The position numbers were made by a program, and so were the translations under genes. DNA of 42,033 bases from Ruminococcus sp. (GTDB lineage Bacteria; Bacillota; Clostridia; Oscillospirales; Ruminococcaceae), in the NCBI GenBank assembly GCA_012718885.1, contig JAAYBK010000377.1, positions 1-42,033 of the forward strand. The letters run 5' to 3'. How positions within the stretch are numbered: the stretch's first letter is position 1; every line of letters starts with the position of its first letter. The notes below the pieces were generated by a model. That model had not been told where the DNA came from. It worked only from the letters and a program-made list of their open reading frames with translations, and did not search any database. This document shows positions 13,769 to 36,414 of this stretch, piece by piece.

Positions 13769-13921
13769 GCGCCGAAGGCGACAAATAATGGGTTTCCAAA
13801 GGGATGCTCATCCCTTTGGCAGAGGGGTGTGCGAGGGGAGACAGCGTCTCCCCTGAAAAGCAGGACTGCGAGCACAGCTATGCAGTCCGGACGCTTTCTG
13901 CATTTCCCCCGGCTTGACCGG
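13769..13921 (+). repeat. structured intergenic element, full copy 1 (before leuC)
   Basis: About 153 bases filling the gap between the acetyltransferase stop and the leuC ribosome binding site. It forms five hairpins in order: CGCC/GGCG (13770-13780); helix A CCAAAGGGAT/ATCCCTTTGG (13796-13805, 13810-13819); helix B AGGGGAGAC/GTCTCCCCT (13834-13842, 13846-13854); helix C GGACTGC/GCAGTCC (13863-13869, 13882-13888); and helix D CCGG-CTTGA-CCGG (13909-13921). The unpaired segments GTGTGCG and GAAAAGCA are identical in the copy at 29863. No named RNA family recognised. Confidence 0.75.
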
Positions 13922-13951
13922 CAAATAATTCTTTTTAAAGGAATGATATTC

Positions 13952-15220
13952 ATGGCAATGACAATGACCCAGAAGATCCTTGCAGCTCATGCCGGACTTG
14001 GCTCCGTAAAGGCAGGCGACCTTATCCTCGCCGGTCTTGACCTTGTCCTCGGTAACGATATCACCTCTCCGGTGGCTATCCGGGAGTTTGCAAAGTTCGG
14101 CAAAGACAGCGTGTTCGACAAAAACAAAGTCACAATGGTCATGGACCACTTCGTCCCCAATAAGGACATAAAAGCTGCTGAACAGTGCCGGATGTGCAGG
14201 GACTTCTGCGACGATAAGGACATCACTCATTTCTTCGATGTGGGAGAAATGGGCATAGAGCACGCCCTGCTGCCGGAAAAAGGTCTTGTCACTGCCGGTG
14301 ATCTCGTCATAGGAGCGGACTCACACACCTGTACCTACGGCGCTCTCGGAGCCTTTTCCACAGGAGTTGGCTCTACAGATATGGCCTGCGGAATGGCTAT
14401 CGGCAAGGCTTGGTTCAAGGTGCCGTCCGCAATGAAGATAGTCCTCACCGGAAGACTTGGCAGATATGTCTCCGGCAAGGATGTTATCCTCCATATCATC
14501 GGCAAAATAGGCGTTGACGGTGCTCTGTACAAGTCTATGGAGTTCACCGGCGAAGGCCTTTCCTCCCTTTCTATGGCCGACCGCCTCTGTATCGCAAATA
14601 TGGCTGTAGAAGCAGGCGCAAAGAACGGCATATTTGAGGTGGACGATATCACTCTCAGCTATATCCGTGAGCACGGAGCTGCTCAGCCTGTGATATACTC
14701 CGCAGATCCTGATGCCGTATACGATGAGGTCATCAACATCGACCTCTCCGAGATAGAGCCTACAGTGGCTTTCCCCCACCTTCCCGGAAATGCAAGAACA
14801 TTCAGCGAGATAGGTGATATTAAGATAGATCAGGTAGTCATCGGCTCCTGCACCAACGGCAGGCTCGAAGACCTGCGTATCGCAGCAGAGATACTCAAAG
14901 GCCGCAAGATCGCTAAAAACGTCAGAACGATCATCATCCCCGCAACTCAGCGGATATACCTTGAGGCTATGGAGGAAGGACTTCTCAGGATCTTCATCGA
15001 AGCCGGAGCTGTTGTCTCAACTCCTACCTGCGGCCCCTGTCTCGGCGGATATATGGGTATACTCGCCGCCGGAGAAAAAGCTGTTGCCACTACCAACAGG
15101 AACTTCGTGGGACGTATGGGACACGTTGATTCAGAGGTCTACCTGGCAAGCCCTGCAACTGCCGCAGCAAGTGCTGTAACAGGCAGGATATCAGATCCAC
15201 GGGAGGTAATTGGCGTATGA
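13952..15220 (+). CDS. leuC: 3-isopropylmalate dehydratase, large subunit
   Basis: 422 residues, aconitase-type large subunit of the short (bacterial/archaeal HacA-like) class. With LeuD it isomerises 2-isopropylmalate to 3-isopropylmalate. Cluster-binding motifs are present: [31 protein letters not shown] and [11 protein letters not shown] with the three Fe-S cysteines. The frame is open back to a GTG at 13829, but that part is translated repeat element. ATG 13952 is chosen because AAAGGA (13937-13942) lies 9 bases upstream and homology begins with [13 protein letters not shown]. The stop overlaps the leuD start by 4 bases (ATGA). Confidence 0.95.
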
Positions 15221-15711
15221 AATATACCGGAAATATCATAAAATACGGTGACAATGTTGATACCGACGTTATAATCCCTGCAAGATACCTTAACACCAGC
15301 GACCATGCTGAGCTGGCATCACACTGCATGGAGGATCTGGACAAGACCTTCGTCAGCCGTGTACAGCAGGGAGATATAATTACTGCCGGCTGGAATTTCG
15401 GCTGCGGTTCATCCCGTGAACACGCTCCCATTGCCATAAAAGCAAGCGGTATATCCCTTGTTATCGCCAAGAGCTTTGCACGTATATTCTACCGCAACGC
15501 TATTAATATCGGCCTTGCTATCGTGGAGTGTCCTGAGGCAGCCGATGGTATCTCCGAGGGAGATAAGGTGGAGGCTGACCTGGATAGCGGCATGATCCGT
15601 GACCTTACTACAGGAAAAGAATACAGGACTGCTCCCTTCCCGGAGTTCGTCCAGAGGATAATCGAAAACGGCGGACTTATGGAGGCTGTGGCAAAGGGGA
15701 TCATAAAGTAA
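15217..15711 (+). CDS. leuD: 3-isopropylmalate dehydratase, small subunit
   Basis: 164 residues, the normal size for the short LeuD class. It forms the swivelling domain that completes the LeuC active site. Motifs: [14 protein letters not shown] near residues 10-23, and [17 protein letters not shown] around residues 67-83, which holds the substrate-contacting Ser-Arg. It overlaps leuC by 4 bases, so the two subunits are translationally coupled at equal ratio, and leuB follows after 12 bases. Confidence 0.95.
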
Positions 15712-15723
15712 AGGAGCGATTTT

Positions 15724-16797
15724 ATGGAATTCAGCATAGCATTGTTAAAAGGCGACGGTATAGGCCCTGAGATAGTGGACAGTGCCGTGGCGGTACTGGA
15801 AAAAACAGCAGCTAAGTTCGGACATAGATTCAGCTTCACTCCATATCTTATCGGAGGATGCGCCATTGACGAGACCGGCATCCCCCTTCCTCCGGAGACA
15901 ATAGAGGGCTGTCTCGCTTCGGACAGCGTCCTCCTCGGAGCAGTGGGCGGCCCGAAATGGGACGATCAGCCCGGAAACAACCGGCCGGAAAAAGCACTCC
16001 TGGGAATACGCTCAGCGCTGGGGCTTTATACCAATCTCCGCCCGGCGAAGCTGTATCCTGCACTTCGTTCAGCCTCACCGCTGAAGGATGAGGTCATAGG
16101 AAAGGGCTTCGACATAATGATAGTACGTGAGCTGACCGGAGGCATATACTTCGGCGACCGTGGCTACCGTGAGGGCAGATACGGTCAGGAGGCCTTCGAC
16201 ACCGAGGCCTACAGCGTTACCGAAATAGAGCGTATAGGCCGTGCAGCCTTTGAATCGGCCATGAAGCGCAGCAGGCGTGTGTGCAGTATCGACAAGGCAA
16301 ATGTCCTTGAATCCTCACGGCTCTGGCGCAAAACTATGCACGAGCTCTCCGGGAAATATCCGGAGGTGCAGTACAGCGATATGTTCGTGGACAATGCCGC
16401 AATGCAGCTTGTCCGTGATCCCGGACAGTTCGATGTCATCGTGACTTCAAATATGTTCGGAGATATACTCTCCGACGAGGCCTCGCAGATAACCGGCTCC
16501 ATAGGTATGCTGGCTTCCGCTTCACTGGGAGAGACAACAAGAGGGATGTATGAGCCCATACACGGCTCTGCTCCGGATATAGCCGGACAGAACAAGGCCA
16601 ATCCCATTGCGACCATACTCTCCGGAGCAATGATGCTGAGATATTCCTTCGGGCTTTCCGCAGAGGCTGACGCTATCGAAAGTGCAGTGGATACAGTGCT
16701 CAGCGCAGGGTGGCGCACCGCTGATATACTCGGCAGTACGGACGGTACTCCGCTTACCTGCACGGAGATGACAGAAAAAATAATCGAGGTGCTTTGA
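15724..16797 (+). CDS. leuB: 3-isopropylmalate dehydrogenase
   Basis: 357 residues. It oxidises and decarboxylates 3-isopropylmalate with NAD+ to 2-oxoisocaproate, the last leucine-specific step before transamination. Family motifs: [12 protein letters not shown] at the N terminus, [11 protein letters not shown], the [10 protein letters not shown] substrate loop, the Asp-rich metal site [12 protein letters not shown] and [13 protein letters not shown], then [18 protein letters not shown] for the adenine of NAD. AAAGGAG lies 6 bases before the ATG. It is the third gene of leuCDB and is followed after 3 bases by a DUF815 ATPase. No aminotransferase IlvE is in the window. Confidence 0.96.
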
Positions 16798-16800
16798 TAA

Positions 16801-17997
16801 ATGAATCAGAAGATACAGACACTCTGCCGCAAGCGTGACCTGCTGGTGATATTCAGGGGGCTTGCTCAGGACGAATGTTTCCGCAGACTTATGGTGCTTC
16901 TCGGCTCTGACAGTGAAGATCAGTCAAACTTTATGGCTGACTACTCGGATTTTGTCACCGAGCTGTACAACAGCGGAACTGCTGATCTGGCTGAACATCT
17001 GCTGAAGATAACTCTCGAGGACGAGAATATCTATGTTACAAATTCAGCCAAGGGAAAAGCTGCGTCACTTCCGGTACAGGAGTGCCTGATGCACGAGCTG
17101 AAATTCATACAGGAACTCTCTGAGCTCACTCCGGAGGATTTCACAGAGGATATGGAATATGACGAGTATATCCCACGCTGGGAGAATTCTCAGGTGGATA
17201 TCATCGGCAGCTACATGGAAAGGGTACAGCTCATAGGCAAATTCGGCTACGGAAAATTCGCACGCCATAAGATGTTCGTTGTAAGAGAAGGCTGCCTTGT
17301 ACCGGTAAAATTCCCGGATCCGCAGAAGCTGTCCGATCTCTACGGCTATGAGCGTGAGCGCAAGGCTGTTGAGGATAACACTCTTGCTCTCCTCAGCGGA
17401 AAGCCCGCTCAGAACGCCCTGCTCTACGGTGACGCAGGCACTGGCAAATCCTCTACGGTAAAGGCTCTCGTCAACGAGTACGCTGACCGTGGACTCAGGC
17501 TCATTGAGATGACCAAGGAGCAGCTGAAAGAGATACCTGAGATAATAGGTCAGATCTGCGAGGATCCGCTGAAGTTCATAATCTTCATCGATGATCTTTC
17601 CTTCACCTCCGGCGAGGACTGCTTCGGAGCGCTGAAGGCAATGCTGGAGGGCTCTGTTTCGGCAAGAGCAAAGAATACCGTCATTTACGCCACAAGCAAC
17701 CGCCGCCACCTTGTCCGTGAATCCTTCTCGGACCGTGAGGGCGATGACATACACCGCAACGATACCATGCAGGAGACACTTTCGCTCTCTGCCCGGTTCG
17801 GACTGAGAGTGAATTTCAGCCGTCCGGATAAGAAAACATTCACTTCCATAGCCTCTGAGCTTGCAAAGAGCAAGGGCATCACCATGCCGGAAGAAGAGCT
17901 TGCTCTCAAAGCAGAGCAGTTCGCTATTTCCTCCGGAAACGGCCGTTCGCCAAGAACTGCAAAGCAGTTCGTGGATCAGCTGCTCAGTGAGAAATAA
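16801..17997 (+). CDS. AAA-type ATPase, DUF815 family
   Basis: 398 residues. The N-terminal 180 or so residues are a family-specific helical region. Then comes an AAA core with Walker A GDAGTGKSS at residues 210-218, Walker B IFIDD at residues 261-265, a sensor-1 Asn in YATSNRRHL and an arginine-rich region DREGDD; the tail has the sensor-2-like RSPRTAKQF. This arrangement matches DUF815 ATPases, which are common in Firmicutes but poorly characterised. The ATG lies 3 bases after the leuB stop, with GAGGTG inside leuB, so it is co-transcribed with leuCDB. This is probably positional only, because no link to leucine synthesis is known. Confidence 0.88.
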   Translation: MNQKIQTLCRKRDLLVIFRGLAQDECFRRLMVLLGSDSEDQSNFMADYSDFVTELYNSGTADLAEHLLKITLEDENIYVTNSAKGKAASLPVQECLMHELKFIQELSELTPEDFTEDMEYDEYIPRWENSQVDIIGSYMERVQLIGKFGYGKFARHKMFVVREGCLVPVKFPDPQKLSDLYGYERERKAVEDNTLALLSGKPAQNALLYGDAGTGKSSTVKALVNEYADRGLRLIEMTKEQLKEIPEIIGQICEDPLKFIIFIDDLSFTSGEDCFGALKAMLEGSVSARAKNTVIYATSNRRHLVRESFSDREGDDIHRNDTMQETLSLSARFGLRVNFSRPDKKTFTSIASELAKSKGITMPEEELALKAEQFAISSGNGRSPRTAKQFVDQLLSEK

Positions 17998-18102
17998 ATA
18001 CTGTCTTAAGTATTTCTTAATCAGAAACATGATATAGTACCAATGGAGGAGCATTACTCTTCCGTTAACTGTATATTAAAATTTATTTATTGGAGGACTA
18101 CC

Positions 18103-19197
18103 ATGAAAAAACTTTTAGCTACATTATGTGCACTCACACTCACACTTTCACTTGCTGCCTGTGGGGATAAGGACAGCAGCTCGGAGAAGAACAGCAGCAA
18201 GAGCAGTTCTGCTTCATCAAAGGATGAAAGCAGCAGCAATATCACTCCGGAGCAAGAAGCCGAAGTCTTTGAAGAGATCGCAAGAACATATACTGTCAGC
18301 GGATACACATCATCCGGTGATGTTCCCGAAAAATTCAAAGACATGGAAAAATATAAGGATAAACTCAATGAAGAGGGCGGAGTTACCATAACCAAAGACG
18401 GGGTACTTCATATTGACGGAGAAGAATATCAGCTCACAGCACAAAAGGTCGAATACAATCCTAAATACGAATATGAAGGCAAAACGATAACCTGCGGTGT
18501 GACCGGCTGTGACTTTTCACTCAAAGGCTTTGAACACAATATAAATACCGTTTCAAAAGACTATGAAGGCTATGCTGCACTGAATTATTGGGAATTTCCT
18601 TCTTATACTGAGTATGACGGACGCAATCATTATGGTACTACAGGAATACAGCTTTTTTACAGCCCGAAAGGCTCATCACTTACTACGATATCATTAATGC
18701 TCAGCTGCGATTATGTTAAAACTATTGATCTAGATCCATTGACAGATGAGATCAAAGCAGATGCTTTTCAGTGTCTCGCCGGCGAATACACCTATCGCAG
18801 CGGATATTTTGAAGATGAAAGCTGTTCTATCAAAAGATATGCTGATCCTTCCAGCGACGAAGTAAAGAAGATATTTAAGGATGACCCTGTTACTATATCT
18901 GAAGACGGTGTGCTTCACTTCGATGGTAAGGACTATCAGCTCGAATATCAAATTTTTAAAACAGACGAAGCAATATTCTGCGTTGAAGGGAACGGTTGTT
19001 CCGCAATTCGCGATGGTTTCGGCTTCGACGGAGTAGGCGCAAAGGATTACTCAGGAGTAGTTTTTATAGAGTCAAGCGACTTTGATATAGACTATGATGG
19101 TGATAAGATCACTATTGAAGCAATCGAGATAAACATTAAAGATGATAATTCAGAAGAATCTTGTCTCACCTTGAATTTCGACCATGTAATAAACTGA
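18103..19197 (+). CDS. putative lipoprotein, first of a tandem pair
   Basis: 364 residues with a clear type II signal peptide ending in lipobox LAAC at about residues 17-20, then a Ser/Lys linker to about residue 45. The mature part contains two related repeats of roughly 150 residues, each with the signature [E/K]-D-G-V-L-H-x-[D/E]-G-x-[E/D]-Y-Q-L (about residues 98-110 and 267-279). ATG 18103 is chosen over an earlier in-frame ATG (18043) because TTGGAGG precedes it and the signal peptide starts there. The next gene is a paralogue with an identical ribosome-binding segment, so the pair arose by duplication. Function unknown; probably a cell-surface protein. Confidence 0.85.
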   Translation: MKKLLATLCALTLTLSLAACGDKDSSSEKNSSKSSSASSKDESSSNITPEQEAEVFEEIARTYTVSGYTSSGDVPEKFKDMEKYKDKLNEEGGVTITKDGVLHIDGEEYQLTAQKVEYNPKYEYEGKTITCGVTGCDFSLKGFEHNINTVSKDYEGYAALNYWEFPSYTEYDGRNHYGTTGIQLFYSPKGSSLTTISLMLSCDYVKTIDLDPLTDEIKADAFQCLAGEYTYRSGYFEDESCSIKRYADPSSDEVKKIFKDDPVTISEDGVLHFDGKDYQLEYQIFKTDEAIFCVEGNGCSAIRDGFGFDGVGAKDYSGVVFIESSDFDIDYDGDKITIEAIEINIKDDNSEESCLTLNFDHVIN

Positions 19198-19221
19198 ATA
19201 AAAAATTATTGGAGGACTACC

Positions 19222-20349
19222 ATGAAAAAAATATTAGCTGCATTATGTGCACTCACACTCACACTTTCACTCGCTGCCTGCGGGGACAAGGACTGCAGCT
19301 CAGAAAAGAAGAACAGCAAGAACAGCTCTTCTTCCTCTGAGAAAAAGTATAATGAAAATGACGATGACGGCAGTGAGATCAGTGCAGATGATGCAAGGAA
19401 CAGCGAGATAAGCGAAGAAGAAGAGGCAAAGGCCTTTGAGAAGATCGCCGGAGAATACTATATGACAGGATACGGCACAAGCGGAAATGTCCCTGAGAAA
19501 TTCGAGGATATGTATGTGTATCAGGATACCGTCAACGAGGAAGGCGTGACCATATCAAAGGACGGCGTTCTCCATATCGAAGGCGAGGACTATCAGCTCC
19601 TGGCTCAGAAGATCGAGGATGAAAAGATCATCTTCAGCATCAAAGGCAGCGGCTTCTCACTCAAGGAATACGAAAAGTCTTTCAACGGTGCTTCAAAGAA
19701 CTATGACGGATTCGCCGTACTTGAATACACCGAGCAGCCTATATCATCTGACGGTGAAATAATCGACAAATATGTTGATCTCAGTCTCAAATACAACGTA
19801 AAGGGCAGCAGATCCACCTTTGTATCCATAGCACTTGGCACCAACAAGCCTGACAAGAACTACAAGGATCCGCTTACTGACGAACAAAAAGCAGAGGCTC
19901 TCAAGGCTATCGCCGGAAACTATACATTCAGCTACGGAATGACGAACAATTCCGAAAACTCTATCGAAAGATACAAGGATCCTTCCAGCGATGAAGTGAA
20001 GAAAATATTTGAGGACGATCCTGTTACAATAACTGAGGACGGCGTTCTCCACTTTGACGGCAAGGACTATCAGCTTGAAGTTCAGGAATTCAGCAAAGAA
20101 GAAGATGACTTCGGCGAAAATGGCGTATTCAGCGTTGAAGGCTGCGGCTTCTCACTCAAGGAGTACAAGCACGGTATAGGCCTTGACGTATCATCAAAGG
20201 ATTATGCCGGCGCTGCTCTTGTAAAGTACAGCGTTTCAACATGGACTCTCTTTGACGAGACAACAGAAACAAGCTCGATAACCGTATACGTTACAGACAA
20301 TACATCAGAATCAGCTCAGGTATCATTTGAATTTGAGCGTGAAGACTAA
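19222..20349 (+). CDS. putative lipoprotein, second of a tandem pair
   Basis: 375 residues, paralogous to the preceding gene over its whole length. The signal peptide is almost identical (lipobox LAAC at about residues 17-20), followed by a longer, more acidic Ser/Asp/Glu linker to about residue 65, then the same two internal repeats with the DGVLHxxGxxYQL signature. The 18 bases before the ATG, TATTGGAGGACTACC with flanks, are shared with the first copy. There are 24 bases between the genes. Codon use is more GC-rich and regular than in the first copy, which looks more AT-rich in its second half, so the two have diverged at different rates. Role unknown. Confidence 0.85.
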   Translation: MKKILAALCALTLTLSLAACGDKDCSSEKKNSKNSSSSSEKKYNENDDDGSEISADDARNSEISEEEEAKAFEKIAGEYYMTGYGTSGNVPEKFEDMYVYQDTVNEEGVTISKDGVLHIEGEDYQLLAQKIEDEKIIFSIKGSGFSLKEYEKSFNGASKNYDGFAVLEYTEQPISSDGEIIDKYVDLSLKYNVKGSRSTFVSIALGTNKPDKNYKDPLTDEQKAEALKAIAGNYTFSYGMTNNSENSIERYKDPSSDEVKKIFEDDPVTITEDGVLHFDGKDYQLEVQEFSKEEDDFGENGVFSVEGCGFSLKEYKHGIGLDVSSKDYAGAALVKYSVSTWTLFDETTETSSITVYVTDNTSESAQVSFEFERED

Positions 20350-20369
20350 ATAACAAGGAGGAATCTTCA

Positions 20370-20747
20370 ATGATAAAGATACATACAGAAAAAGCTCCCG
20401 CAGCAGTGGGACCATACTCACAGGCAGTAGTTTCAAACGGAATGGTCTACACCAGCGGCCAGATTGCTATCGATCCTGCCACTAATTCCGTAAGAGCAGA
20501 GACTATCGAGGATCAGACCGAACAGGTAATGAAGAACTTAGGACAAATACTCCGCACAGCAGGCTCATCTTTCGAGAAGGCTGTTAAGACCACCTGCTTT
20601 CTCGCTGATATGAACGACTTTGCAAAGTTCAACGAGGTATACGCAAAATACTTCACAAACCTTCCGGCAAGAAGCTGTGTTGCAGTAAAGACTCTTCCGA
20701 AGAACGTTCTCGTCGAGGTGGAGGTCATCGCTGAAAGCAGCCTGTAA
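20370..20747 (+). CDS. ridA: RidA-family enamine/imine deaminase
   Basis: 125 residues, the standard length of the trimeric YjgF/YER057c/UK114 family. RidA hydrolyses reactive enamines and imines, such as 2-aminoacrylate made by threonine dehydratase, and so protects PLP enzymes including IlvE. Signatures: APAAVGPYSQAV at about residues 9-20, YTSGQIAIDP, and the C-terminal PARSCVAVKTLPKN-VLVEVEVIA with the carboxylate-binding Arg. AAGGAGG lies upstream. The short distance from the BCAA cluster fits its protective role, although two lipoprotein genes and an ATPase gene intervene. Confidence 0.94.
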   Translation: MIKIHTEKAPAAVGPYSQAVVSNGMVYTSGQIAIDPATNSVRAETIEDQTEQVMKNLGQILRTAGSSFEKAVKTTCFLADMNDFAKFNEVYAKYFTNLPARSCVAVKTLPKNVLVEVEVIAESSL

Positions 20748-20800
20748 AATGCAGGTCACTAACAGGGGTTATCACGGAGAGATAAATAAGGAGAATTATT

Positions 20801-21733
20801 ATGAATGTACATGAATTACAGGAGGCAGTCCTCAAGCTCAAAAAGGAGACAAATACCGCTATTCTCGCCCACAGCTACCAGGCAAGGGAAATAGTGGAGA
20901 TAGCCGACTTCACCGGCGACAGCTACAAGCTCAGTGTTGACGCAACAAAAACAGACGCTAAGAACATCCTCTTCTGCGGAGTACACTTCATGGCTGAAAC
21001 AGCAAAAATGCTCTCGCCTCAGAAAAGAGTATATCTTGCCAACAGAGAAGCAGGCTGCCCTATGGCTGAACAGATGGACAGGGAGATGATATCCGCTCTC
21101 CGTGAAGCAGAGCCGGACAGAACTGTCGTTGCATATATCAACACTACAGCCTCACTCAAGGCTGTCTGCGACGTATGTGTTACCTCATCCAGTGCCCTGA
21201 AGATAGTGAAGGCGCTGGACGCTGAAAAGATACTCTTCATCCCGGACTGCAATCTTGGAGACTACGTGAAGAGAAACTGCCCCGACAAGGATATAAAACT
21301 CCTTCAGGGCGGATGTCCTACCCACGCAAAGGTAACTGTTGCTGAAGTTATGAAAGCTAAGGAAGAGCATCCCGGCGCACTTTTCCTCGTTCATCCTGAA
21401 TGTCAGCCAAAGGTAGTTGCTCTCGCAGACTATGTCGGCTCCACATCAGGCATTATGGACTACGCAAGAAAGTCAGGCGCAAAGGAATTCATCATCGGCA
21501 CAGAGACTTCTATTGCCGAGCACTTGCAGTATGAATGTCCCGAGAAGAGATTCTATCCTGTGACCAAGGACATAATGTGCCATAATATGAAGATAACGAC
21601 TCTCCCCGATGTATACCGTTCGCTCCTGGGCATTGCCGGAAAGAACGGCGAAGCATTTGAGATACTCATGGATGATGAGCTCATCGCACAGGCCAAAAAA
21701 TGCATTGATGAAATGATAAGGCTCGGCGGCTGA
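20801..21733 (+). CDS. nadA: quinolinate synthase A
   Basis: 310 residues, matching bacterial NadA. It condenses iminoaspartate with dihydroxyacetone phosphate to quinolinate for NAD synthesis, using a [4Fe-4S] cluster with three Cys ligands. Visible motifs: AHSYQAREIVEIADFTGDSY at about residues 23-42, the CGVHFMAETAKML segment with the first Cys, the NTTA...CVTSSSA segment, HPEC, GTETSIAEHLQYECP and the final Cys in DIMCHNMK. Three pseudo-duplicated domains are as expected. AAGGAG precedes the ATG. nadB and nadC are not in the window. The next gene, hydE, starts 1 base after the stop, so the two are co-transcribed. Confidence 0.95.
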   Translation: MNVHELQEAVLKLKKETNTAILAHSYQAREIVEIADFTGDSYKLSVDATKTDAKNILFCGVHFMAETAKMLSPQKRVYLANREAGCPMAEQMDREMISALREAEPDRTVVAYINTTASLKAVCDVCVTSSSALKIVKALDAEKILFIPDCNLGDYVKRNCPDKDIKLLQGGCPTHAKVTVAEVMKAKEEHPGALFLVHPECQPKVVALADYVGSTSGIMDYARKSGAKEFIIGTETSIAEHLQYECPEKRFYPVTKDIMCHNMKITTLPDVYRSLLGIAGKNGEAFEILMDDELIAQAKKCIDEMIRLGG

Positions 21734-21734
21734 T

Positions 21735-22784: not shown

Positions 22785-22794
22785 GGAGCAGACC

Positions 22795-23733
22795 ATGAGA
22801 GTACGATTCCATCTGCCTGATTTTTCAGGCAATTTCAAGCTTAACTATATGTTTTCCGAGCTTCTGAAGCACCGTCCGGAGTTCTTCCGTGAGGGTGTGG
22901 AGATAGCTTCCTTCTACGGTGTTTTCCCGCCATGTCTCTGGAACGGAGGAAGAACTCAGGGCGGCATGACCGACAAGAATTTCATCAAGAATGTCATCAA
23001 GGTATTCAACGACAAGGGAATACCGCTGAGATATACCTTCACCAACATGATGCTGGAGAAAAAACACCTCAGCGATGACCGCTGCAACATGATACTCAAC
23101 CTGTCCAACAACGGACTGAACGAGGCTATCGTCGCCTCCCCCGTACTTGAGGACTATCTGAGAAGGAACTACCCAAAATTCAAGCTTACAAGCTCCACCT
23201 GCAAGCGACTCAATACTGAGGAGGCTCTTCTGGCCGAGCTGGAAAAGGATTACCATATCGTTGTCATTGACTACGATTTCAACAACCGCTTCGACATCCT
23301 TGAAAAGCTCCCGCGCAAAAAGGATATCGAATTTCTGGTAAATGCCTGCTGCGAGCCTGACTGTCCAAGAAGGATAGAGCATTACAAGTCCATAGGCGAA
23401 CAGCAGATAGCATACTGCGAGCATATCAAAAAGCACCCCAACCTCCCATTTGACATTGAAAAGCACGATCCGAAGAATTTCCGTGCCTGTCCGTATTCAC
23501 AGCGCGGTATCTTTGAGATACGCGGCCTGAGAACTCACATCTCTCCGGATGATATCTGGGAGAAATACGTTCCCATGGGATTTGAGCAGTTCAAGATCGA
23601 GGGCCGTACCGCAAGCCCTCTCAATGTGCTTGAAACATATATGTATTACATGGCTAAACCTGAATGCCGTGACGAAGCCCGCTTCACCCTGCTCAAGGGA
23701 ATGGAGAATTCAAGGGCGCTGACATTCAACTAA
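22795..23733 (+). CDS. U32-like TIM-barrel protein, first of a tandem pair
   Basis: 312 residues with the U32 (collagenase-like/UbiU-type) signature near the C terminus, FEQFKIEGRT at residues 263-272, where family members have SFKIEGR. Fe-S-type cysteines stand at VNACCEPDCPRR (C185, C186, C190), with further Cys in FRACPYS and KPEC; all are kept in the next gene. No signal peptide, so it is cytoplasmic. U32 proteins of the UbiU, UbiV, TrhP and RlhA type are Fe-S or hydroxylation factors rather than true proteases, so protease activity should not be assumed. The substrate is unknown. It follows hydE by 10 bases with AAGGAG upstream. Confidence 0.75.
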   Translation: MRVRFHLPDFSGNFKLNYMFSELLKHRPEFFREGVEIASFYGVFPPCLWNGGRTQGGMTDKNFIKNVIKVFNDKGIPLRYTFTNMMLEKKHLSDDRCNMILNLSNNGLNEAIVASPVLEDYLRRNYPKFKLTSSTCKRLNTEEALLAELEKDYHIVVIDYDFNNRFDILEKLPRKKDIEFLVNACCEPDCPRRIEHYKSIGEQQIAYCEHIKKHPNLPFDIEKHDPKNFRACPYSQRGIFEIRGLRTHISPDDIWEKYVPMGFEQFKIEGRTASPLNVLETYMYYMAKPECRDEARFTLLKGMENSRALTFN

Positions 23734-23746
23734 AAGGAGGCATAAT

Positions 23747-24706
23747 ATGAGAGTTCGTTTTCATCTTCCGGACTTTACTCAGCATTTCATGTTCAATATC
23801 ATCTTCTCCGAAATGCTGAAGAACAAACCGGAATTATTCCGTGAGGGAGTAGAGATAGCTTCCGTATACGGTACATTCCCCCCTGCAATATGGAACGGCG
23901 GACGCTTTTCTGCCGGAAAGTGCGACAAGAGCTTCATCAAGCAGGTTATAAATGAGTTCAATAAGCGTGGGATACCTCTCCGCTTCACCTTCACAAATCC
24001 TGTACTGGAAAAGAAGCACGTTCACGATGAATACTGCAATATGATAATGCACCTTGCAGACAACGGCATGAACGAGGTCATTGTTGCTTCTCCCATACTT
24101 GAAGACTATATCCGCAATACATATCCGAATTACAAGATAACCAGCTCCACCTGCAAGCGTATAACCGATCCGGAAAAGATGTACGAAGAGGTGAGCAAGG
24201 ATTATCATATCGTTGTCATAGACTATGACCTGAACAATCAGTTCGATATCCTTGAAAAAATACCGGATAAGAAGAAGTGCGAGCTGCTGGTAAATGCCTG
24301 CTGCAATCCGGGCTGCAAATTCCGTTCAGATCATTACAAGATGATAGGCGCTGAGACGCTGGCCTATGCTGAGCACATGAAGAAGGCTCCCGGCGTTAGC
24401 TTCGATTTCAAGCTCCCTCCGAAATACGCTCAGTATGTCAAGGAAGAGGTCGAACAGTGCCAGTGCATGAACAGAGCAGTATTCGAGATAAAGAATATGC
24501 GTACTCATATAAGCCCTGAGGCTATATGGGAGAAGTATGTACCTATGGGCTTCGAGCAGTTCAAGATCGAGGGACGTACTATCGAGCTCTTCAATCTGGT
24601 CGAGCACTATATGTATTATATGATAAAGCCGGAATGTCGTGACGAAGCAAGACTTCTCTTCCTCACAAGACTGAAAAGACAGGATGTAATAGACGCCCCA
24701 TTCTGA
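23747..24706 (+). CDS. U32-like TIM-barrel protein, second of a tandem pair
   Basis: 319 residues, paralogous to the upstream gene from the first residue (MRVRFHLPDF is identical). It keeps the cysteines C185, C186 and C190 (VNACCNPGC), a CxC in EQCQCMNRA where the first copy has FRACPYS, the final KPECRDEA, and FEQFKIEGRT at residues 269-278. An insertion of about 7 residues precedes the CxC. The pair of similar but distinct U32-like subunits recalls the UbiU/UbiV heterodimer, in which each partner carries a [4Fe-4S] cluster. That comparison is structural analogy, not proof of function. AAAAGGAGG lies just upstream and the gap to the first copy is 13 bases. Confidence 0.75.
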   Translation: MRVRFHLPDFTQHFMFNIIFSEMLKNKPELFREGVEIASVYGTFPPAIWNGGRFSAGKCDKSFIKQVINEFNKRGIPLRFTFTNPVLEKKHVHDEYCNMIMHLADNGMNEVIVASPILEDYIRNTYPNYKITSSTCKRITDPEKMYEEVSKDYHIVVIDYDLNNQFDILEKIPDKKKCELLVNACCNPGCKFRSDHYKMIGAETLAYAEHMKKAPGVSFDFKLPPKYAQYVKEEVEQCQCMNRAVFEIKNMRTHISPEAIWEKYVPMGFEQFKIEGRTIELFNLVEHYMYYMIKPECRDEARLLFLTRLKRQDVIDAPF

Positions 24707-24724
24707 TAAAAGGAGTTGACCTAT

Positions 24725-26227
24725 ATGAGAGCAGCAGCAGTATTCAGCGACAATATGGTGCTCCAGCGCCGCAGGCCGGTGCGTATCTTCGGCACCTGCG
24801 CCAGGCATCAGGGAGACATAACGGTAAGTATACCGGAACTGGATGTATCCGCAAAGGCACTTATCAGCGGTAAAAAATGGGAGGCTGTCCTGCCGCCTAT
24901 GGAAGCTGTTGAAAGCTGTACCCTTGAGCTGATATCCGGAGCAGTCAGGAAGAAATTCGTGAATGTAGCCGTAGGAGAGGTATGGCTTGCCGGCGGTCAG
25001 TCAAATATGGAGTTCGAACTCCAGAACGAGCTCAACGGCAGCAAGGCTCTTGCTGAATGTAAGGATGAGAACGTCAGGTTCTACTATACTCCCAAATGTG
25101 AGATGCTGAATGAAAAGCTGCTCAGCTCCGAAAGGAACACCTGCTGGGGACTTCCCTCGGAGGAGGGCGCCCGTGCATGGTCTGCGGTAGGATATTATTT
25201 TGCAAAGGAGCTCAGCCGCCGCCTTGGAGTCACTGTAGGCGTTATCGGCTGCAACTGGGGCGGCACCTCCGCCTCAGCATGGATCCCTCGTGAGGCTCTT
25301 GAGCGCGACAGCCGAATACGTCCGTATATAGACGAGTATGACAAGGCAATAGAAGGCAAGTCTCCGGAGGAAATGATAGCGGAGTACGAGGAGTACGGCC
25401 GCTACCAGTGGGGCTGGCAGCAAAGACAGCAGCAGCTCTGTGATGAAAGGCCGGATGTGTCCTGGGCGGAAATACTGGAGATATGCGGGGAGAACCGCTT
25501 CCCCGGTCCGGCAGGGATAATGAATCCCATGCGTCCCTGCGGACTGCATGAAACGATGATAAGCCGCATCGCTCCCTATACTCTCGGCGGCGTGATCTAC
25601 TATCAGGGCGAATCCGACGACACCAGACCTGACACCTATGAAGTGCTGATGAAAGCCCTCATAGACCAGTGGCGCCGTGACTGGAAGGATAATGAGCTGC
25701 CCTTCCTTATGGTACAGCTTCCCATGCACCGCTATGCGAACGAGCCGGATACAAAGAGCTGGCCTGTGATACGTGAGGCACAGATGAACGTGTTCAGGAC
25801 GGTAAAGAATACAGGGCTTGCCGTAGCACTTGACTGCGGAGAATTTGACGAGATACACCCGAAGGAAAAAGCTGTTATCGCTCACAGACTGTATCTTCAG
25901 GCATTGTCCGAGGTATACGGACTTGCCGGCCGTGAGGATACGCTGTCGCCGTTATTCAGCTATGCAGTGAACGGAAATGGCAGAATACGGCTGTATTTTG
26001 ACAACTGCTCCGGATTTGAGGCGACTGGTGAGATCAACGGATTTGAAGTATCAGGTGCAGACGGAAGACTTGTTCCGGCTGAGGCTGAGATTGACGGAAA
26101 CACGATCATTCTCAGGGCGGATATAGAAGCGCCGCTCACGGAAGTGCGTTATAAGTGGACTAATTATGCAGATGTCGAGCTTTACGGAAAGAACGGGCTT
26201 CCTGTACCGACTTTCCGAAAAAAATAA
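24725..26227 (+). CDS. sialate O-acetylesterase-like SGNH hydrolase
   Basis: 500 residues. SGNH block I is WLAGGQSNMEFEL with the nucleophile Ser93 in GQSNM. Block III is GVIYYQGESDD. The catalytic Asp/His pair appears as DEIHP (D375, H378). VIGCNWGGTSASAWIPREAL is also typical of sialate O-acetylesterase and glycan acetylesterase relatives. No signal peptide is visible, so it probably acts on imported or intracellular oligosaccharides; relatives remove acetyl groups from sialic acid or xylan. ATG 24725 is preferred over a TTG at 24716 because AGGAG (24711-24715) lies 9 bases before it. It ends in a large terminator. Confidence 0.88.
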   Translation: MRAAAVFSDNMVLQRRRPVRIFGTCARHQGDITVSIPELDVSAKALISGKKWEAVLPPMEAVESCTLELISGAVRKKFVNVAVGEVWLAGGQSNMEFELQNELNGSKALAECKDENVRFYYTPKCEMLNEKLLSSERNTCWGLPSEEGARAWSAVGYYFAKELSRRLGVTVGVIGCNWGGTSASAWIPREALERDSRIRPYIDEYDKAIEGKSPEEMIAEYEEYGRYQWGWQQRQQQLCDERPDVSWAEILEICGENRFPGPAGIMNPMRPCGLHETMISRIAPYTLGGVIYYQGESDDTRPDTYEVLMKALIDQWRRDWKDNELPFLMVQLPMHRYANEPDTKSWPVIREAQMNVFRTVKNTGLAVALDCGEFDEIHPKEKAVIAHRLYLQALSEVYGLAGREDTLSPLFSYAVNGNGRIRLYFDNCSGFEATGEINGFEVSGADGRLVPAEAEIDGNTIILRADIEAPLTEVRYKWTNYADVELYGKNGLPVPTFRKK

Positions 26228-26235
26228 ATTAAAAC

Positions 26236-26316
26236 GCCGAAGGCGGCAAATAATGGGGTCCCAAAGGGGATATAATCCCTCTGACTCCATGTATCTTGCC
26301 GCCTCCGGCTTTTTTT
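26236..26316 (+). terminator. terminator made from a divergent copy (copy 2) of the structured element
   Basis: GCCGAAGGCGGCAA (26236-26249) pairs with TTGCCGCCTCCGGC (26296-26309) with a single A-C mismatch, followed by seven T residues. Inside the loop GGGGTC pairs with GACTCC, and AGGGGAT with ATCCCT. The left part (CGCCGAAGGCGGCAAATAAT and the CCAAAGGG segment) matches the start of the copies at 13769 and 29863, so this looks like a shortened relative that serves as a transcription terminator. Confidence 0.75.
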
Positions 26317-26429
26317 ATTTTTTCAAAAAAATTTTTGAGATTTTTGTCCGATTCCCTTTTCAGCCTCCGAGTGTATGTAGTGTAAAGGCTGACACAGCCA
26401 AAAAAGAAATACTTATAGGAGTGACAAAT

Positions 26430-26918
26430 ATGAAAAAAACAACATCAAAATTCACAATCGCTGCTCTTGCCGCAGCTCTCGTATTAGGCGGAGGATATGC
26501 TTCAGTCAATCAGTTCGATGCATCTGCTGAAACTCCTTCTGTCGTTGCAGCAGAGGGTGACGCAGTTGTCGCTGACGCTGCACCTGCTGAGGACGCAGAG
26601 GCTATCACTACAACAACTACATCTGCTCAGGCTGAGGATATAACAACAACTACCACAACTGTTGCTGTAACTACTGAACCAGCTACAACTACAGCAGCAA
26701 CTACCACTCAGGCAGTTGTGACAACACAGGCTGCAACAACTACAAAGGCAGCTACAACTACAGCAAAGACTACAACCAAGGCTGCAACAACTTCCGCTAA
26801 GACCACTTCTAAGAACGGCTCTCCAAAGACAGGCGATGCTTTCCCGGCTCTCGGACTTACCGCCGTTATAGGCGCAGCAGGTCTCGTTGGTCTGGCTACA
26901 AGAAAGAAAGATTCATAA
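26430..26918 (+). CDS. Thr-rich surface protein with sortase-type C terminus
   Basis: 162 residues: signal peptide (about residues 1-33, Lys-rich then Ala/Leu-rich, with a likely cleavage after ASA), an acidic Ala/Val/Glu stretch, then about 75 residues made almost entirely of Thr, Ala and Val with Thr-Thr-Thr runs, and a C-terminal sorting signal. The signal is SPKTG at residues 131-135, then a hydrophobic helix, then RKKDS. SPKTG is a variant of the LPXTG motif. There is no recognisable globular domain, so it looks like a stalk or spacer, possibly O-glycosylated. ATG 26430 follows AGGAG; the frame is open further upstream but that part lacks a ribosome binding site. Confidence 0.85.
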   Translation: MKKTTSKFTIAALAAALVLGGGYASVNQFDASAETPSVVAAEGDAVVADAAPAEDAEAITTTTTSAQAEDITTTTTTVAVTTEPATTTAATTTQAVVTTQAATTTKAATTTAKTTTKAATTSAKTTSKNGSPKTGDAFPALGLTAVIGAAGLVGLATRKKDS

Positions 26919-26937
26919 CTCCTTAATACATCCAAGC

Positions 26938-27000
26938 AAAAACGTCCCGTGACAGGAGGTGTTCCTAATAAGGAATGCTGACTGAAAGCGGGGCGTTTTT
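26938..27000 (+). terminator. terminator after the Thr-rich surface protein
   Basis: AAAAACG (26938-26944) pairs with CGTTTTT (26994-27000), with CCCG/CGGG continuing the stem. An internal hairpin TTCCTAATAAGGAA sits in the loop. The T-run of the right arm makes this a probable terminator, readable in either direction. Confidence 0.6.
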
Positions 27001-27040
27001 GTATCTATAGCCGAAAAATATCCCGGAGCCGCAATACCGC

Positions 27041-27070
27041 TTGACAAAACCGATAGCTTTGGTATATAAT
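27041..27070 (+). promoter_or_regulatory. sigma-A-type promoter of the cysE T-box leader
   Basis: TTGACA at 27041-27046 and TATAAT at 27065-27070 with an 18-base spacer. The predicted transcription start is near 27077, just before T-box stem I. Confidence 0.8.
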
Positions 27071-27076
27071 ATCATA

Positions 27077-27318
27077 TAGAATATGAGTATAAAGGCATAG
27101 CAGTCAGAGTATCATTCTCTCAGTCTTTCAGAGAGCGTCGGGGCGGTGTGACGGCGCAGACGGTGAATGTGAAGTGCGGCTGTCAGCTTCGGGGAGGAAC
27201 AGGGCATATGCCGCAAAGTATTCCCCGGCGTTTCCCTCGTTACGGGCAAATGAGTAATAAATCGGAGTGGGACCGTGCATATCGCACCTCCGGAGCATTT
27301 TTGCTCCGGAGGTTTTTT
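27077..27318 (+). ncRNA. cysteine-specific T-box leader of cysE
   Basis: A tRNA-sensing attenuator. Stem I contains CAGAGAGCG with GGGGCGGTGTGACGG. The specifier region reads GAAG-TGC-GGC-TGTCAG, placing UGC, a cysteine codon, at 27175-27177. The T-box is the variant GTGGGACCGTGC at about 27267-27278, with GGGACC where GGTACC is common. The terminator has 11-bp arms CCTCCGGAGCA (27287-27297) and TGCTCCGGAGG (27302-27312) and a T-run at 27313-27318. Uncharged tRNA-Cys should open transcription into cysE and probably on to cysS. Confidence 0.9.
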
Positions 27319-27350
27319 GTTCCCCCTCTCTTCCGGTAAAGGAGCACATT

Positions 27351-28016
27351 ATGTTTTTCAAACAGTTAAGACGAGATATAAGACTTATCAAAGAGCGTGA
27401 CCCTGCTGCAAGGAACGCCTTTGAGATACTCCTGACCTATCCGAGCCTCTCGGCTATACGCAGCTACCGTATCGCCCATTGGTTCTACAAGCGCAAAATG
27501 TTCACCGTAGCAAGAATGATCTCCCAGAGGTCAAGACACAAGACCGGTATCGAGATTCATCCCGGCGCAACTATCGGCAAAGGACTTTTCATCGACCACG
27601 GCATGGGAGTAGTCATCGGCGAAACTACCGTAATAGGCGACAACTGCCTTATCTACCAGGGAGCTACCCTGGGCGGTACAGGCAAGGAGAAGGGCAAGCG
27701 TCACCCCACCCTCGGAAACAACGTACTTGTCGGCGCTGGTGCAAGAGTGCTGGGGCCGTTCAAGGTAGGCAACAACGTGAAGATCGCTGCAAATGCGGTG
27801 GTGCTCCACGCTATCCCCGACAATTCAACTGCCGTCGGAGTTCCGGCAAGGGTAGTCCGCATGAACGGAAAGAAGCTGCCGGAACACACCGTTACACAGG
27901 ATATCGACCAGATCCATATTCCCGATCCTGTATCTCTGGAGTTCTGCCGCATGCAGCTCGAGATCGCAGAACTGAAAAAGGAGATCGCAGAGCTTACACA
28001 GGGCTCCGGCATATAA
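27351..28016 (+). CDS. cysE: serine O-acetyltransferase
   Basis: 221 residues. It makes O-acetylserine from serine and acetyl-CoA, the first step of cysteine synthesis. The N-terminal alpha domain (RDIRLIKERDPAARN and HWFYKR) is followed by a left-handed beta-helix of hexapeptide repeats from about residue 65. The catalytic His is in GLFIDHGMGVVIGET, and GATLGGTGKEKGKRHP is typical. The C terminus is longer than the minimal form and ends with a Glu/Lys-rich segment (EIAELKKEIAEL) that looks like a short coiled coil. ATG 27351 follows AAAGGAG and a cysteine T-box. Confidence 0.94.
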   Translation: MFFKQLRRDIRLIKERDPAARNAFEILLTYPSLSAIRSYRIAHWFYKRKMFTVARMISQRSRHKTGIEIHPGATIGKGLFIDHGMGVVIGETTVIGDNCLIYQGATLGGTGKEKGKRHPTLGNNVLVGAGARVLGPFKVGNNVKIAANAVVLHAIPDNSTAVGVPARVVRMNGKKLPEHTVTQDIDQIHIPDPVSLEFCRMQLEIAELKKEIAELTQGSGI

Positions 28017-28028
28017 GAGGTGACAGCT

Positions 28029-28412
28029 ATGAATATAATTCGCTACCCCTCGGCTGAGGCAATAAACGAGGCTGTCCGCAGGGATTCACGGCTGATAGCA
28101 GCTATCTCCCACGACGGCAGCTCTGCTGTTGTAGCTCCCATAGAGGAAGCCGGCGAACACAGTCTGCTGCTGGTGCTTTCCGGCCATACCGACACAGATG
28201 TGAAGAATTTCTTCCGGATAGCCTTCAACAGCAGCTCCGCAGACTGGGACTTCACCTGTCCGGCCGGCTACAGAGCTATCCCCGACGGAAGCCAGAGAAC
28301 ATCAGCATATTACAATGACGGTCTTAGAAAAATACCGGAGTTTCTTGTAATGTTCGGCTACTTCTCAAAGCTGAATATCAAAAACGCTCCTCCGGATATA
28401 TGGGACTTCTGA
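28029..28412 (+). CDS. hypothetical protein between cysE and cysS
   Basis: 127 residues, soluble, without signal peptide or membrane segment. A single Cys lies in FTCPAGY. Features include an acidic-hydrophobic N-terminal half (SHDGSSAVVAPIEEAGEHSLLLVLSG) and a conserved-looking C terminus (YFSKLNIKNAPPDIWDF). I do not recognise the family. ATG 28029 is preferred over GTG 28020 because GAGGTG at 28017-28022 is its ribosome binding site, right after the cysE stop. Position in the cysE-cysS group under a cysteine T-box suggests a tie to cysteine or tRNA-Cys metabolism, but only by context. Confidence 0.75.
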   Translation: MNIIRYPSAEAINEAVRRDSRLIAAISHDGSSAVVAPIEEAGEHSLLLVLSGHTDTDVKNFFRIAFNSSSADWDFTCPAGYRAIPDGSQRTSAYYNDGLRKIPEFLVMFGYFSKLNIKNAPPDIWDF

Positions 28413-28440
28413 CAAAACAAAACATAAAGGAGAAAAGATC

Positions 28441-29859
28441 ATGCAGTTATACAATTCGCTTTCACATAAAAAAGAGGACTTCATCCCCCGTGAGGCCGGT
28501 AAGGTAAGTATGTACACCTGCGGCCCGACAGTATACCACTACGCCCACATCGGCAACCTCAGAAGCTATATCATGGAGGATATCCTCGAAAAGTACCTCC
28601 GCTTCACAGGACTTGACGTAAAGCGTGTAATGAATATCACTGATGTAGGCCACCTTACCAGCGACGGTGACACCGGCGATGACAAAATGCTCAAGGGCGC
28701 AAAGCGTGAGCACAAGACCGTAATGGAGATAGCAAAGTTCTATACTGATGCTTTCTTCGCAGACTGTGCAAAGCTCAACATCAAGACACCGGACGTTGTT
28801 GTGCCTGCAACTACATACATCGACGAGTTCATCCGTGTTATCTCCGTACTCATGGAAAAGGGCTATGCCTATGAGGCCGGCGGAAACATCTACTTCGATA
28901 CCTCAAAGCTGGACAAATACTATGTATTCGGCGACCTCAGCGAGGAAGATCTTGAAGTCGGAGTACGTGAAGGCGTTGAGGCTGACGGAAACAAGCGCAA
29001 TAAGGCTGACTTCGTGCTCTGGTTCACAAAGTCCAAATTCGACGATCAGGAGCTGAAATGGGAAAGCCCCTGGGGAGTAGGCTACCCCGGCTGGCACATT
29101 GAGTGCTCATGCATAAGCATGAAGAATCTGGGCGAGTACCTGGATATACACTGCGGCGGTATCGACAATGCATTCCCTCACCACACCAACGAGATCGCTC
29201 AGTCTGAGGCCTATCTCGGACATGAATGGTGCAATTACTGGTTCCATGTACACCACCTGAATACCACATCAGGAAAGATGAGCAAGAGCAAGGGCGAATT
29301 CCTCACAGTATCACTGCTGGAGGAAAAGGGCTATGATCCGCTGGTTTACCGCTTCTTCTGCCTGAATTCACACTACAGGAAGTCACTTGTATTCTCATGG
29401 GATAATCTTGATAACGCAGTTGTATCTTTCAACAAGCTCATTGACAAGATAGTTCCTCTCACACAGGAGCCTGCCGGAGAGATCGACAAGGCTGAGTACG
29501 ACCGTCTCCGCAAGTCCTTTGACGAGGCTCTCGGAAACGATATCAATACCTCACTGGCTGTAACGGCAGTATATGACGTACTGAAATCAAAGGCAAACGC
29601 TACCACAAAGCTGGCTCTGCTCAATGATTTTGACACTGTGCTGGGACTTGATATGGTCAAGAAGGCAGCAGCAAAAGCTGAGGCAGCAGGCAGCTCCGCA
29701 GCAGACATCCCCGCTGAGGTACTGGAACTTGTGGAACAGCGCAAGGCTGCACGTAAGGATAAGAACTTCGCACTTGCAGATGAGCTGCGTGACAAGATAG
29801 CTGCACTGGGATATGAAGTCAAGGAAACTCGTCAGGGCACAGAAATTAATAAAATATAA
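28441..29859 (+). CDS. cysS: cysteinyl-tRNA synthetase
   Basis: 472 residues, class Ia synthetase that charges tRNA-Cys. The Zn2+ ligand Cys27 is in YTCGPTVY, the HIGN motif lies at residues 36-39, the second zinc motif is WHIECSC around residue 220, and KMSKS is at residues 279-283. The C-terminal anticodon-binding region ends with QRKAARKDKNFALADELRDKIAALGYEVKET, typical of CysS. It follows the unknown gene by 28 bases with AAGGAG upstream. The cysteine T-box ahead of cysE probably controls it too, since I see no terminator in between. A full copy of the structured element follows the stop. Confidence 0.96.
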   Translation: MQLYNSLSHKKEDFIPREAGKVSMYTCGPTVYHYAHIGNLRSYIMEDILEKYLRFTGLDVKRVMNITDVGHLTSDGDTGDDKMLKGAKREHKTVMEIAKFYTDAFFADCAKLNIKTPDVVVPATTYIDEFIRVISVLMEKGYAYEAGGNIYFDTSKLDKYYVFGDLSEEDLEVGVREGVEADGNKRNKADFVLWFTKSKFDDQELKWESPWGVGYPGWHIECSCISMKNLGEYLDIHCGGIDNAFPHHTNEIAQSEAYLGHEWCNYWFHVHHLNTTSGKMSKSKGEFLTVSLLEEKGYDPLVYRFFCLNSHYRKSLVFSWDNLDNAVVSFNKLIDKIVPLTQEPAGEIDKAEYDRLRKSFDEALGNDINTSLAVTAVYDVLKSKANATTKLALLNDFDTVLGLDMVKKAAAKAEAAGSSAADIPAEVLELVEQRKAARKDKNFALADELRDKIAALGYEVKETRQGTEINKI

Positions 29860-29862
29860 GAA

Positions 29863-30017
29863 CGCCGAAGACGGCAAACAACGGGAGTCCAGAGGAAATG
29901 TACTTCCCTCTGGCGGAGAGGTGTGCGAGGAGAGGCAGAGCCTCTCCTGAAAAGCAGTACAGCAAGCGAAGCAATGCTGTACGGACTCCCCTGCAATATT
30001 AGCCTCGGCTTGACCGA
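29863..30017 (+). repeat. structured intergenic element, full copy 3 (before walJ)
   Basis: About 155 bases between cysS and the metallo-hydrolase gene. Hairpins in the same order as at 13769: GCCG/CGGC (29864-29875); helix A CCAGAGG/CCTCTGG (29889-29895, 29907-29913); helix B AGGAGAGGC/GCCTCTCCT (29928-29936, 29940-29948); helix C GTACAGCA/TGCTGTAC (29957-29964, 29975-29982); helix D TCGG-CTTGA-CCGA (30005-30017). An extra closing stem GGGAGTCC (29883-29890) / GGACTCCC (29983-29990) overlaps helix A by two bases. Differences from the first copy preserve pairing. Confidence 0.75.
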
Positions 30018-30051
30018 CGCTATCCAGTTTTTCAGAAACGGAGAATCACCA

Positions 30052-36385: not shown

Positions 36386-36414
36386 CGAAATAACCAAAGG
36401 AAAGAGATTTCACA

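Follow-up and report, generated by a model that had tools for sequence, protein, structure and literature searches.

A new family of mosaic interspersed DNA repeats in Ruminococcus with putative intrastrand triplex modules

The closest described relatives of the repeat reported here are the bacterial interspersed mosaic elements (BIMEs), the repetitive extragenic palindromes (REPs) and the REP doublets known as REPINs, found in enterobacteria, pseudomonads and others. They are extragenic, occur in many copies, are organized as mosaic units in inverted pairs, preserve their palindromes by paired changes and vary in presence between related genomes. All these traits are shared by a repeat of ~155 nt, two full copies of which are located in the window, i.e., the whole stretch of 42,033 nucleotides that was analyzed (contig JAAYBK010000377.1 of assembly GCA_012718885.1, Ruminococcus sp.). 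One of its five hairpins (D, in a series that we label A to E; B–E correspond to A–D of a preliminary description) is REP-like in outline. However, a REP unit is a short palindrome (20–40 bp), a size that here only hairpin D alone has, while the repeat is a five-hairpin unit with mostly GCAG instead of GTAG and with third-strand purine segments. Also unlike those systems, no REP-associated tyrosine transposase (RAYT) was found in the window's genome (86% complete), and the centers of some paired copies are inverted between orthologous pairs. We know of no report of this kind of inversion in a literature that was not exhaustively searched. The repeat is a real and new family of a known broad kind, that of the mosaic interspersed DNA repeats. 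The complete reading, which we favor with slightly better than even confidence, is that of a non-autonomous repeat of Ruminococcus (flavefaciens group) with BIME/REPIN-like organization and its own sequence, in which two hairpins would fold as triplexes and copies would be remodeled by template switching.

Miniature inverted-repeat transposable elements (MITEs) and BOX elements, the latter also modular, resemble the repeat in being small, non-coding, intergenic and multi-copy. Unlike for MITEs, we found neither a cognate transposase nor a target-site duplication, and a single copy has different ends; only the tail-to-tail pair has inverted ends, with junctions that are not fixed to the base. 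With the intrastrand triplex motifs (the potential intrastrand triplex or PIT elements, BoxC / TM_ECO and the ITxF classes), as described in excerpts of PMC4666352, the repeat shares the class I order, the triplets G.GC, A.AT and T.AT, and the condition of a repeated intergenic motif linked to local rearrangement. In contrast, TM_ECO / BoxC is assigned in the same excerpts to class II, pyrimidine-purine-purine (Y-R-R), whereas the order here is R-R-Y, and the first loop of hairpin C (7 nt) is longer than the 1–6 nt given there as the ITxF limit. Moreover, the two class I motifs are here modules of a larger repeat and are proposed on the basis of covariation. At the gathering threshold, the sole Rfam 15 family in the window was a T-box outside the repeat; the repeat itself had sub-threshold or no matches in E-value searches, in agreement with the preliminary description, which knew of no named family; the Clostridiales-2 RNA (RF02937) resembles it weakly around hairpin B (17.4 and 15.3 bits against a gathering score of 58.6). 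No description of the repeat turned up in the literature searched, which is not proof that none exists.

A covariance model was built from 30 copies of the window's own genome (G000), two of them near-duplicates on contig ends, and 60 genomes were searched, scoring at most 50 candidates in each. There were 47 matches in G000 itself (BLASTN with copy 1 gave 38, weak and partial ones counted) and at least 50, the number scored, in another genome, G001. Matches appeared in 25 of the 60 genomes, all belonging to the same genus (25/36, against 0/24 from other families), so that the search of relatives proposed in the preliminary description did retrieve further copies, and none of the refuting outcomes named there occurred as such. 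The best match was below 1e-18 in eight genomes (G000, G001, G009, G012, G017, G020, G024 and G031), whereas the relatives in the remaining ones were weaker and partial. Named genomes scanned with a pattern yielded 59 stretches in Ruminococcus flavefaciens FD-1, ND2009, UBA3661, UBA3730 and several metagenome-assembled genomes of Ruminococcus. The order within the unit is hairpin A, a third-strand segment followed by hairpin B, a second third-strand segment followed by hairpin C, and then D and E. GCAG or GTAG, mostly the former, precedes hairpin D in most aligned copies, as judged by eye. Units are found either single or in tail-to-tail pairs, with a spacer of mostly 8–10 nt and occasionally ~20 or 40 nt; in both G000 and G001 the pairs are present beside many single copies. 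A hairpin-rich insert of ~62 nt was located inside helix C in 11 of 55 G001 copies and another inside helix B in 2 of 55. These two inserts (e.g., L061 6438–6652 and L078 3231–3438) are related, have three hairpins each and look like a second, smaller mobile element; further clusters of hairpins in the genus (L044, L049) contain similar sequences.

For the statistics we used 154 rows (28 copies from a first set plus 54 of 70 and 72 of 121 matches), of which 153 were distinct; duplicates of the same G001 places and partial or weak matches were left out. Hairpin B could be parsed in 143 of the 153 copies and 108 had the standard layout of C, the other 45 having a shorter C class, nested inserts or Ns, while pairing and mutual information were analyzed in 128 copies of the right length without any N, three odd ones being excluded by name.

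A possible fold involving more than two strands is indicated by the covariation of the purine segments placed 5′ of hairpins B and C with the hairpins themselves. The seven bases 5′ of helix C (C0) mirror its purine arm, with 6.05 of 7 positions identical versus 4.78 for permuted partners (0/5000; 108 copies), and the same holds over 29 distinct type pairs (5.90 versus 4.61, 0/5000). Direct identity in the same register has a z of −0.1, and for this reason the possibility of C0 competing, as a direct repeat, for ordinary pairing with the 3′ arm of C was rejected. Counting the third base and then the duplex purine, the C0 cells were G.G (509), A.A (144), T.A (26), A.G (73) and four others once each, i.e., 679 of 756 fit the triplet code G.GC, A.AT, T.AT. 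A third-strand T stood opposite A in 26 of 27 C cells and 7 of 8 types. At hairpin B, 706 of 715 cells fit the code, with 4.94 of 5 positions observed versus 4.13 permuted (0/5000 over copies and 4/5000 over 11 type pairs). An unbiased scan of mutual information found the same triples (columns 53.69.79, 54.68.80, 55.67.81, 24.31.45 and 25.30.46): the top 45 column pairs include 54-68, 53-69, 55-67, 25-30 and 24-31 (G.G, A.A, T.A) together with their pyrimidine partners, and the others are ordinary helix pairs, neighbors and linker-alignment effects. In both hairpins the strand order is that of class I, 5′ reverse-Hoogsteen purines followed by the purine and the pyrimidine arm, with the third strand antiparallel (mirror register). 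Antiparallel purines with G.GC, A.AT and T.AT are also the rules of the purine motif in excerpts of PMC4666352. B and C have the layout of class I intrastrand triplexes and would fold as such.

The helices covary as well. At least one both-side change was found at 17 of the 36 predicted pairs among the 30 own-genome copies, and among the 128 copies of several species two or more types of Watson-Crick pair occur at 24 of 30 positions, so that the changes keep being compensatory beyond the window. Between the two window copies we counted the same six clear both-side changes reported in the preliminary description (one in B, two in C, two in D and one in E), plus, in the additional hairpin A, a GGCG to GACG change that is uncompensated in copy 2; the length of arm B is unequal. 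Among 200 dinucleotide shuffles of each copy, none folded as well as the original when treated as single-stranded DNA (z −4.65 and −4.80). The 3811 base-pair cells comprise 3706 Watson-Crick pairs, 37 G.T, 30 A.C and 38 others. G-U is normally well tolerated in RNA families, and the similar numbers of G.T and A.C therefore favor DNA rather than RNA. According to excerpts of PMC4666352, purine-motif triplexes cannot form in RNA. Besides, template switching between inverted repeats homogenizes arms and inverts spacers (excerpts of PMC8604942), and thus compensatory changes alone are no proof of selection.

The presence of the repeat varies among relatives. Ten of 24 units of G000 had both flanks in the sequence of G024 that was compared, where the copy was conserved at two places (L019, L021), the site was cleanly empty at three (L001 and L008, which are window copies 1 and 2, and L026), remnants were left at two (L015, L012) and no copy was recognizable at three (L009, L011, L024). 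By eye, the gap before leuC is also element-free in G001, G015 and G004, where the gene upstream is unchanged. A finer comparison was that of 22 orthologous copies in G001 and RGIG7061, with flanks that were 96/94% identical (medians) and elements with a median identity of 79% (range 59–95%). Modules had changed type 7 times in A, 7 in B, 18 in C, 15 in D and 10 in E; types were assigned by short patterns, and four of the differences in C and one of those in B involve an unparsed type. At five of nine pair loci the center was clearly inverted, with inverted/direct identities of 0.93/0.59, 0.95/0.61, 0.85/0.62, 0.94/0.66 and 0.89/0.65. Another was partly inverted (0.81/0.63), two were not inverted (0.65/0.97 and 0.63/0.88), and the ninth was undecided (0.67/0.60), with a right-hand end that was assumed and not found by the model. 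For L066/L187, the flank identity is 0.14 over a flank of ~44 nt and the orientation rests on a separate comparison. The two G000 pairs with a counterpart in Firm_05 have the same orientation. The sole candidate case of recent transposition between G001 and RGIG7061 turned out to be an internal deletion. In G000, a first pair member with an identical 25-nt flank is found at the end of contig C345 and at the start of C157 (L003/L022, L004/L027) and continues into different right-hand flanks, which could reflect two haplotypes, ectopic exchange or an assembly artefact.

In the mechanism that we propose, B and C would fold as reverse-Hoogsteen purine-purine-pyrimidine triplexes in a single-stranded + strand or a supercoiled duplex, and these folds would stall replication. 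Template switching or short-homology recombination between the inverted arms would then homogenize stems, swap modules and flip the centers of pairs. Watson-Crick-perfect stems, exchanged modules and flipped centers would all follow from template switching, with no RNA selection required. The spread probably needed an enzyme provided in trans, and new copies would arise through its action on the folded strand. Since template switching makes inverted and not mirror repeats, the third strands point to a significance of the DNA fold as such, be it for stalling, as the substrate of an enzyme or for persistence. A more specific proposal sees in the repeat a selfish or structural DNA element that is constrained by two intrastrand purine-motif triplexes, and in its tail-to-tail copies numerous small segments that go on inverting in the intergenic regions, possibly altering neighboring sequence; we put it forward as a tentative one and give it somewhat less than even credence.

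Several points weigh against the triplex and mobility parts of this reading. The A.G cells (73/756) violate the strict triplet code, and a direct alignment of C0 displaced by two positions reaches a z of 5.1 over copies (1.7 over types). The mirror pattern was first seen by eye and then tested on the same copies, which share ancestry and exchange modules, so that the permutation figures are not clean probabilities. Triplexes of 5–7 triplets, with a 7-nt loop (C) or three loop bases within the duplex (B), may be weak, and the ITxF limits (stem 6–15, loops 1–6) are missed (C has a stem of 7 and loops of 7 and 5, B a stem of 5). A generic third-strand test outside the repeat family, in other hairpin families of the genus, was negative (z 0.1). 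With a different choice of register for the same loci the test gave a z of 5.5 (0/3000; 64 contexts), a figure of little weight, given that it came after the negative one and that the wrong strand was partly counted. A mobilizing enzyme was not found in searches for Y1_Tnp and RAYT-like proteins (G000 86%, G001 79% complete). The loci compared between G001 and RGIG7061 included no clean empty site that would demonstrate recent transposition, nor was any target-site duplication seen at insertion junctions, which are not fixable to the base.

The genomic context, with genes from a simple open reading frame (ORF) caller, is that of an intergenic repeat present in either orientation. No overlap with a called gene exceeded 60 bp in any of 52 copies (20 G001 loci). 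In G001 the repeat occupies 26/132 co-directional gaps, 6/24 convergent ones and 4/26 divergent ones, and its single copies in co-directional gaps are on the same strand in 8 cases and on the opposite one in 9. Among 17 singles of G000, co-directional gaps held 8 on the same and 4 on the opposite strand, 3 gaps were convergent, 1 was divergent and 1 copy was at an edge. The idea that convergent pairs are the result of one element per gene end was rejected, 9 of 13 pair gaps being co-directional. The window copies start 4 and 3 nt past a stop codon that lies upstream, and ~28 and 33 nt separate their ends from the ATG that follows. The filling of the gap ahead of a start codon, previously described for these two places, is not a rule of the family. 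The copies probably have no dedicated regulatory role at the two sites.

Among the alternatives, we regard as unlikely, though the least so, a purely mutational origin, in which a decaying family would owe its perfect stems to template switching and gene conversion, without any fold being selected, and would show the third-strand pattern as a by-product of having purine-rich modules from few ancestors. Arm homogenization and spacer inversion are known outcomes of template switching (excerpts of PMC8604942), and here modules swap as blocks, centers invert, G.T is not enriched and one copy has an internal deletion. However, this process would give inverted and not mirror repeats, permuting the distinct module types abolishes the mirror match (C 0/5000, B 4/5000), and the T substitutions lie opposite A in 7 of 8 types. 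Improbable, to a greater degree, is a REP/REPIN family mobilized by a RAYT (a Y1 tyrosine transposase), in which hairpin D with its G(C/T)AG would be the REP and the tail-to-tail pairs the REPIN. These two likenesses make a RAYT the natural candidate enzyme: REPs have GTAG and then an imperfect palindrome with AAGCGaaGCG inside (excerpts of PMC2817692), REPINs are inverted doublets (excerpts of PMC3116915), and RAYT-like proteins do occur in the genus, e.g., in G017 (NCBIfam REP_Tyr_transpos 65.7 bits, cut-off 80), G020 and G012. On the other hand, a RAYT-like query found none in the copy-rich G000 (86% complete) or G001 (79% complete), which is not final in incomplete genomes, a Y1_Tnp search of G000 gave no match, genomes with a RAYT-like protein such as G010, G013 and G008 have only weak element matches, and 30 loci around Y1_Tnp matches contained no element match; the unit of ~155 nt with five hairpins and mostly GCAG does not fit either. 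As a separate observation, RAYT-like proteins were seen in G017, G020, G012, G010, G008, G013 and G019, the one of G017 being below the NCBIfam REP_Tyr_transpos cut-off.

Far less probable is a cis-acting RNA, whether leader, stabilizer or processing site of the neighboring genes. The fold is stable (with DNA parameters), its helices covary, and both window copies are co-oriented with the genes and begin just past a stop codon, but the repeat is found in either orientation, has almost no excess of G.T, is absent from the same gap in relatives and contains putative purine-motif triplexes, which are impossible in RNA (excerpts of PMC4666352). An RNA regulator or 3′ untranslated region element, prompted by G000 copies that start after stop codons, was dropped upon finding both orientations in G001. 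The data do not support an RNA fold under selection or a leader with a regulatory function, as the preliminary description had suggested, given the orientations (8/9 in G001, 8/4 in G000) and the counts of G.T and A.C (37 versus 30); its other two options, a mobile miniature element and repeated DNA hairpins, are in better agreement with them. Least credible is a bidirectional terminator cassette at gene ends: T-rich sequence often comes after hairpin A when the minus strand is read, but divergent gaps carry the element too (4/26, G001), and hairpins B–E would be left without explanation.

Both structured elements of the preliminary description are present in the window sequence and are listed in Table 1. 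There is also a short derivative that looks like a tail-to-tail pair without its center. A further, weak partial match to the B region heads a different hairpin chain within a short intergenic gap (36270–36395). Hairpin chains with CCAAAGGG..CCCTTTGG are common in the genus (129 matches in G018, 49 in G031, 35 in G015 and 22 in G035, with 0 in the reversed control). The window also contains a T-box leader (RF00230, 105 bits) at 5630–5880 (+), upstream of an ORF starting at 5951, and two adjacent pairs of duplicated genes at 18043–20349 and 22795–24706 (repeat families D2, D3, D4 and D10).

Table 1. The repeat and its parts in the window.
Feature	Position	Strand	Remarks
Full copy 1 (~155-nt repeat)	13770..13923	+	Covariance model 156.7 bits, E 1.7e-45
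Surroundings of copy 1			Acetyltransferase-like gene, stop 13765; then leuC of the preliminary description, ATG 13952 (from ORFs)
Copy 1, hairpin A	13770..13780	+	Outer end; CGCC GAA GGCG
Copy 1, third-strand segment for B	13790..13794	+	GGGTT opposite AAGGG, 5/5 triplet code
Copy 1, hairpin B	13796..13819	+	
Copy 1, third-strand segment C0	13821..13827	+	AGAGGGG, exact mirror of GGGGAGA
Copy 1, hairpin C	13835..13853	+	GGGGAGA CAGCG TCTCCCC
Copy 1, hairpin D	13863..13888	+	Family has G(C/T)AG motif 5′ of D
Copy 1, hairpin E	13909..13921	+	CCGG CTTGA CCGG; inner end, the meeting side in tail-to-tail pairs
Full copy 2	29863..30019	+	Covariance model 152.6 bits, E 3.1e-44
Surroundings of copy 2			ORF 28441–29859 before; ATG ~30053 after (walJ of the preliminary description)
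Copy 2, hairpin A	29863..29874	+	One uncompensated change
Copy 2, third-strand segment for B	29883..29887	+	GGGAG opposite GAGGA, 4/5
Copy 2, hairpin B	29889..29913	+	
Copy 2, third-strand segment C0	29915..29921	+	GGAGAGG, exact mirror of GGAGAGG
Copy 2, hairpin C	29929..29947	+	GGAGAGG CAGAG CCTCTCC
Copy 2, hairpin D	29957..29982	+	
Copy 2, hairpin E	30005..30017	+	TCGG CTTGA CCGA
Short derivative	26235..26309	+	Hairpin A, third strand, B arm, then inverted outer end, then T run; covariance model match 26235–26284, E 2.9e-6
Weak partial match	36270..36305	+	Third strand and B region; head of a further hairpin chain; model E 0.023

These results carry a warning, namely that compensatory changes in the hairpins of a repeat do not suffice to prove a functional RNA. 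They also make the repeat a case in which inversion and the exchange of modules at inverted repeats can be followed in nature. The case for intrastrand DNA triplexes in bacteria has so far come from motif counts and from the biophysics of a few motifs. If the triplex reading is true, natural covariation of base triples would be evidence for DNA triplexes in living bacteria. With well over a hundred sequenced copies, three-way covariation and the canonical triplet code, the repeat makes the triplex question testable in a cultured genus.

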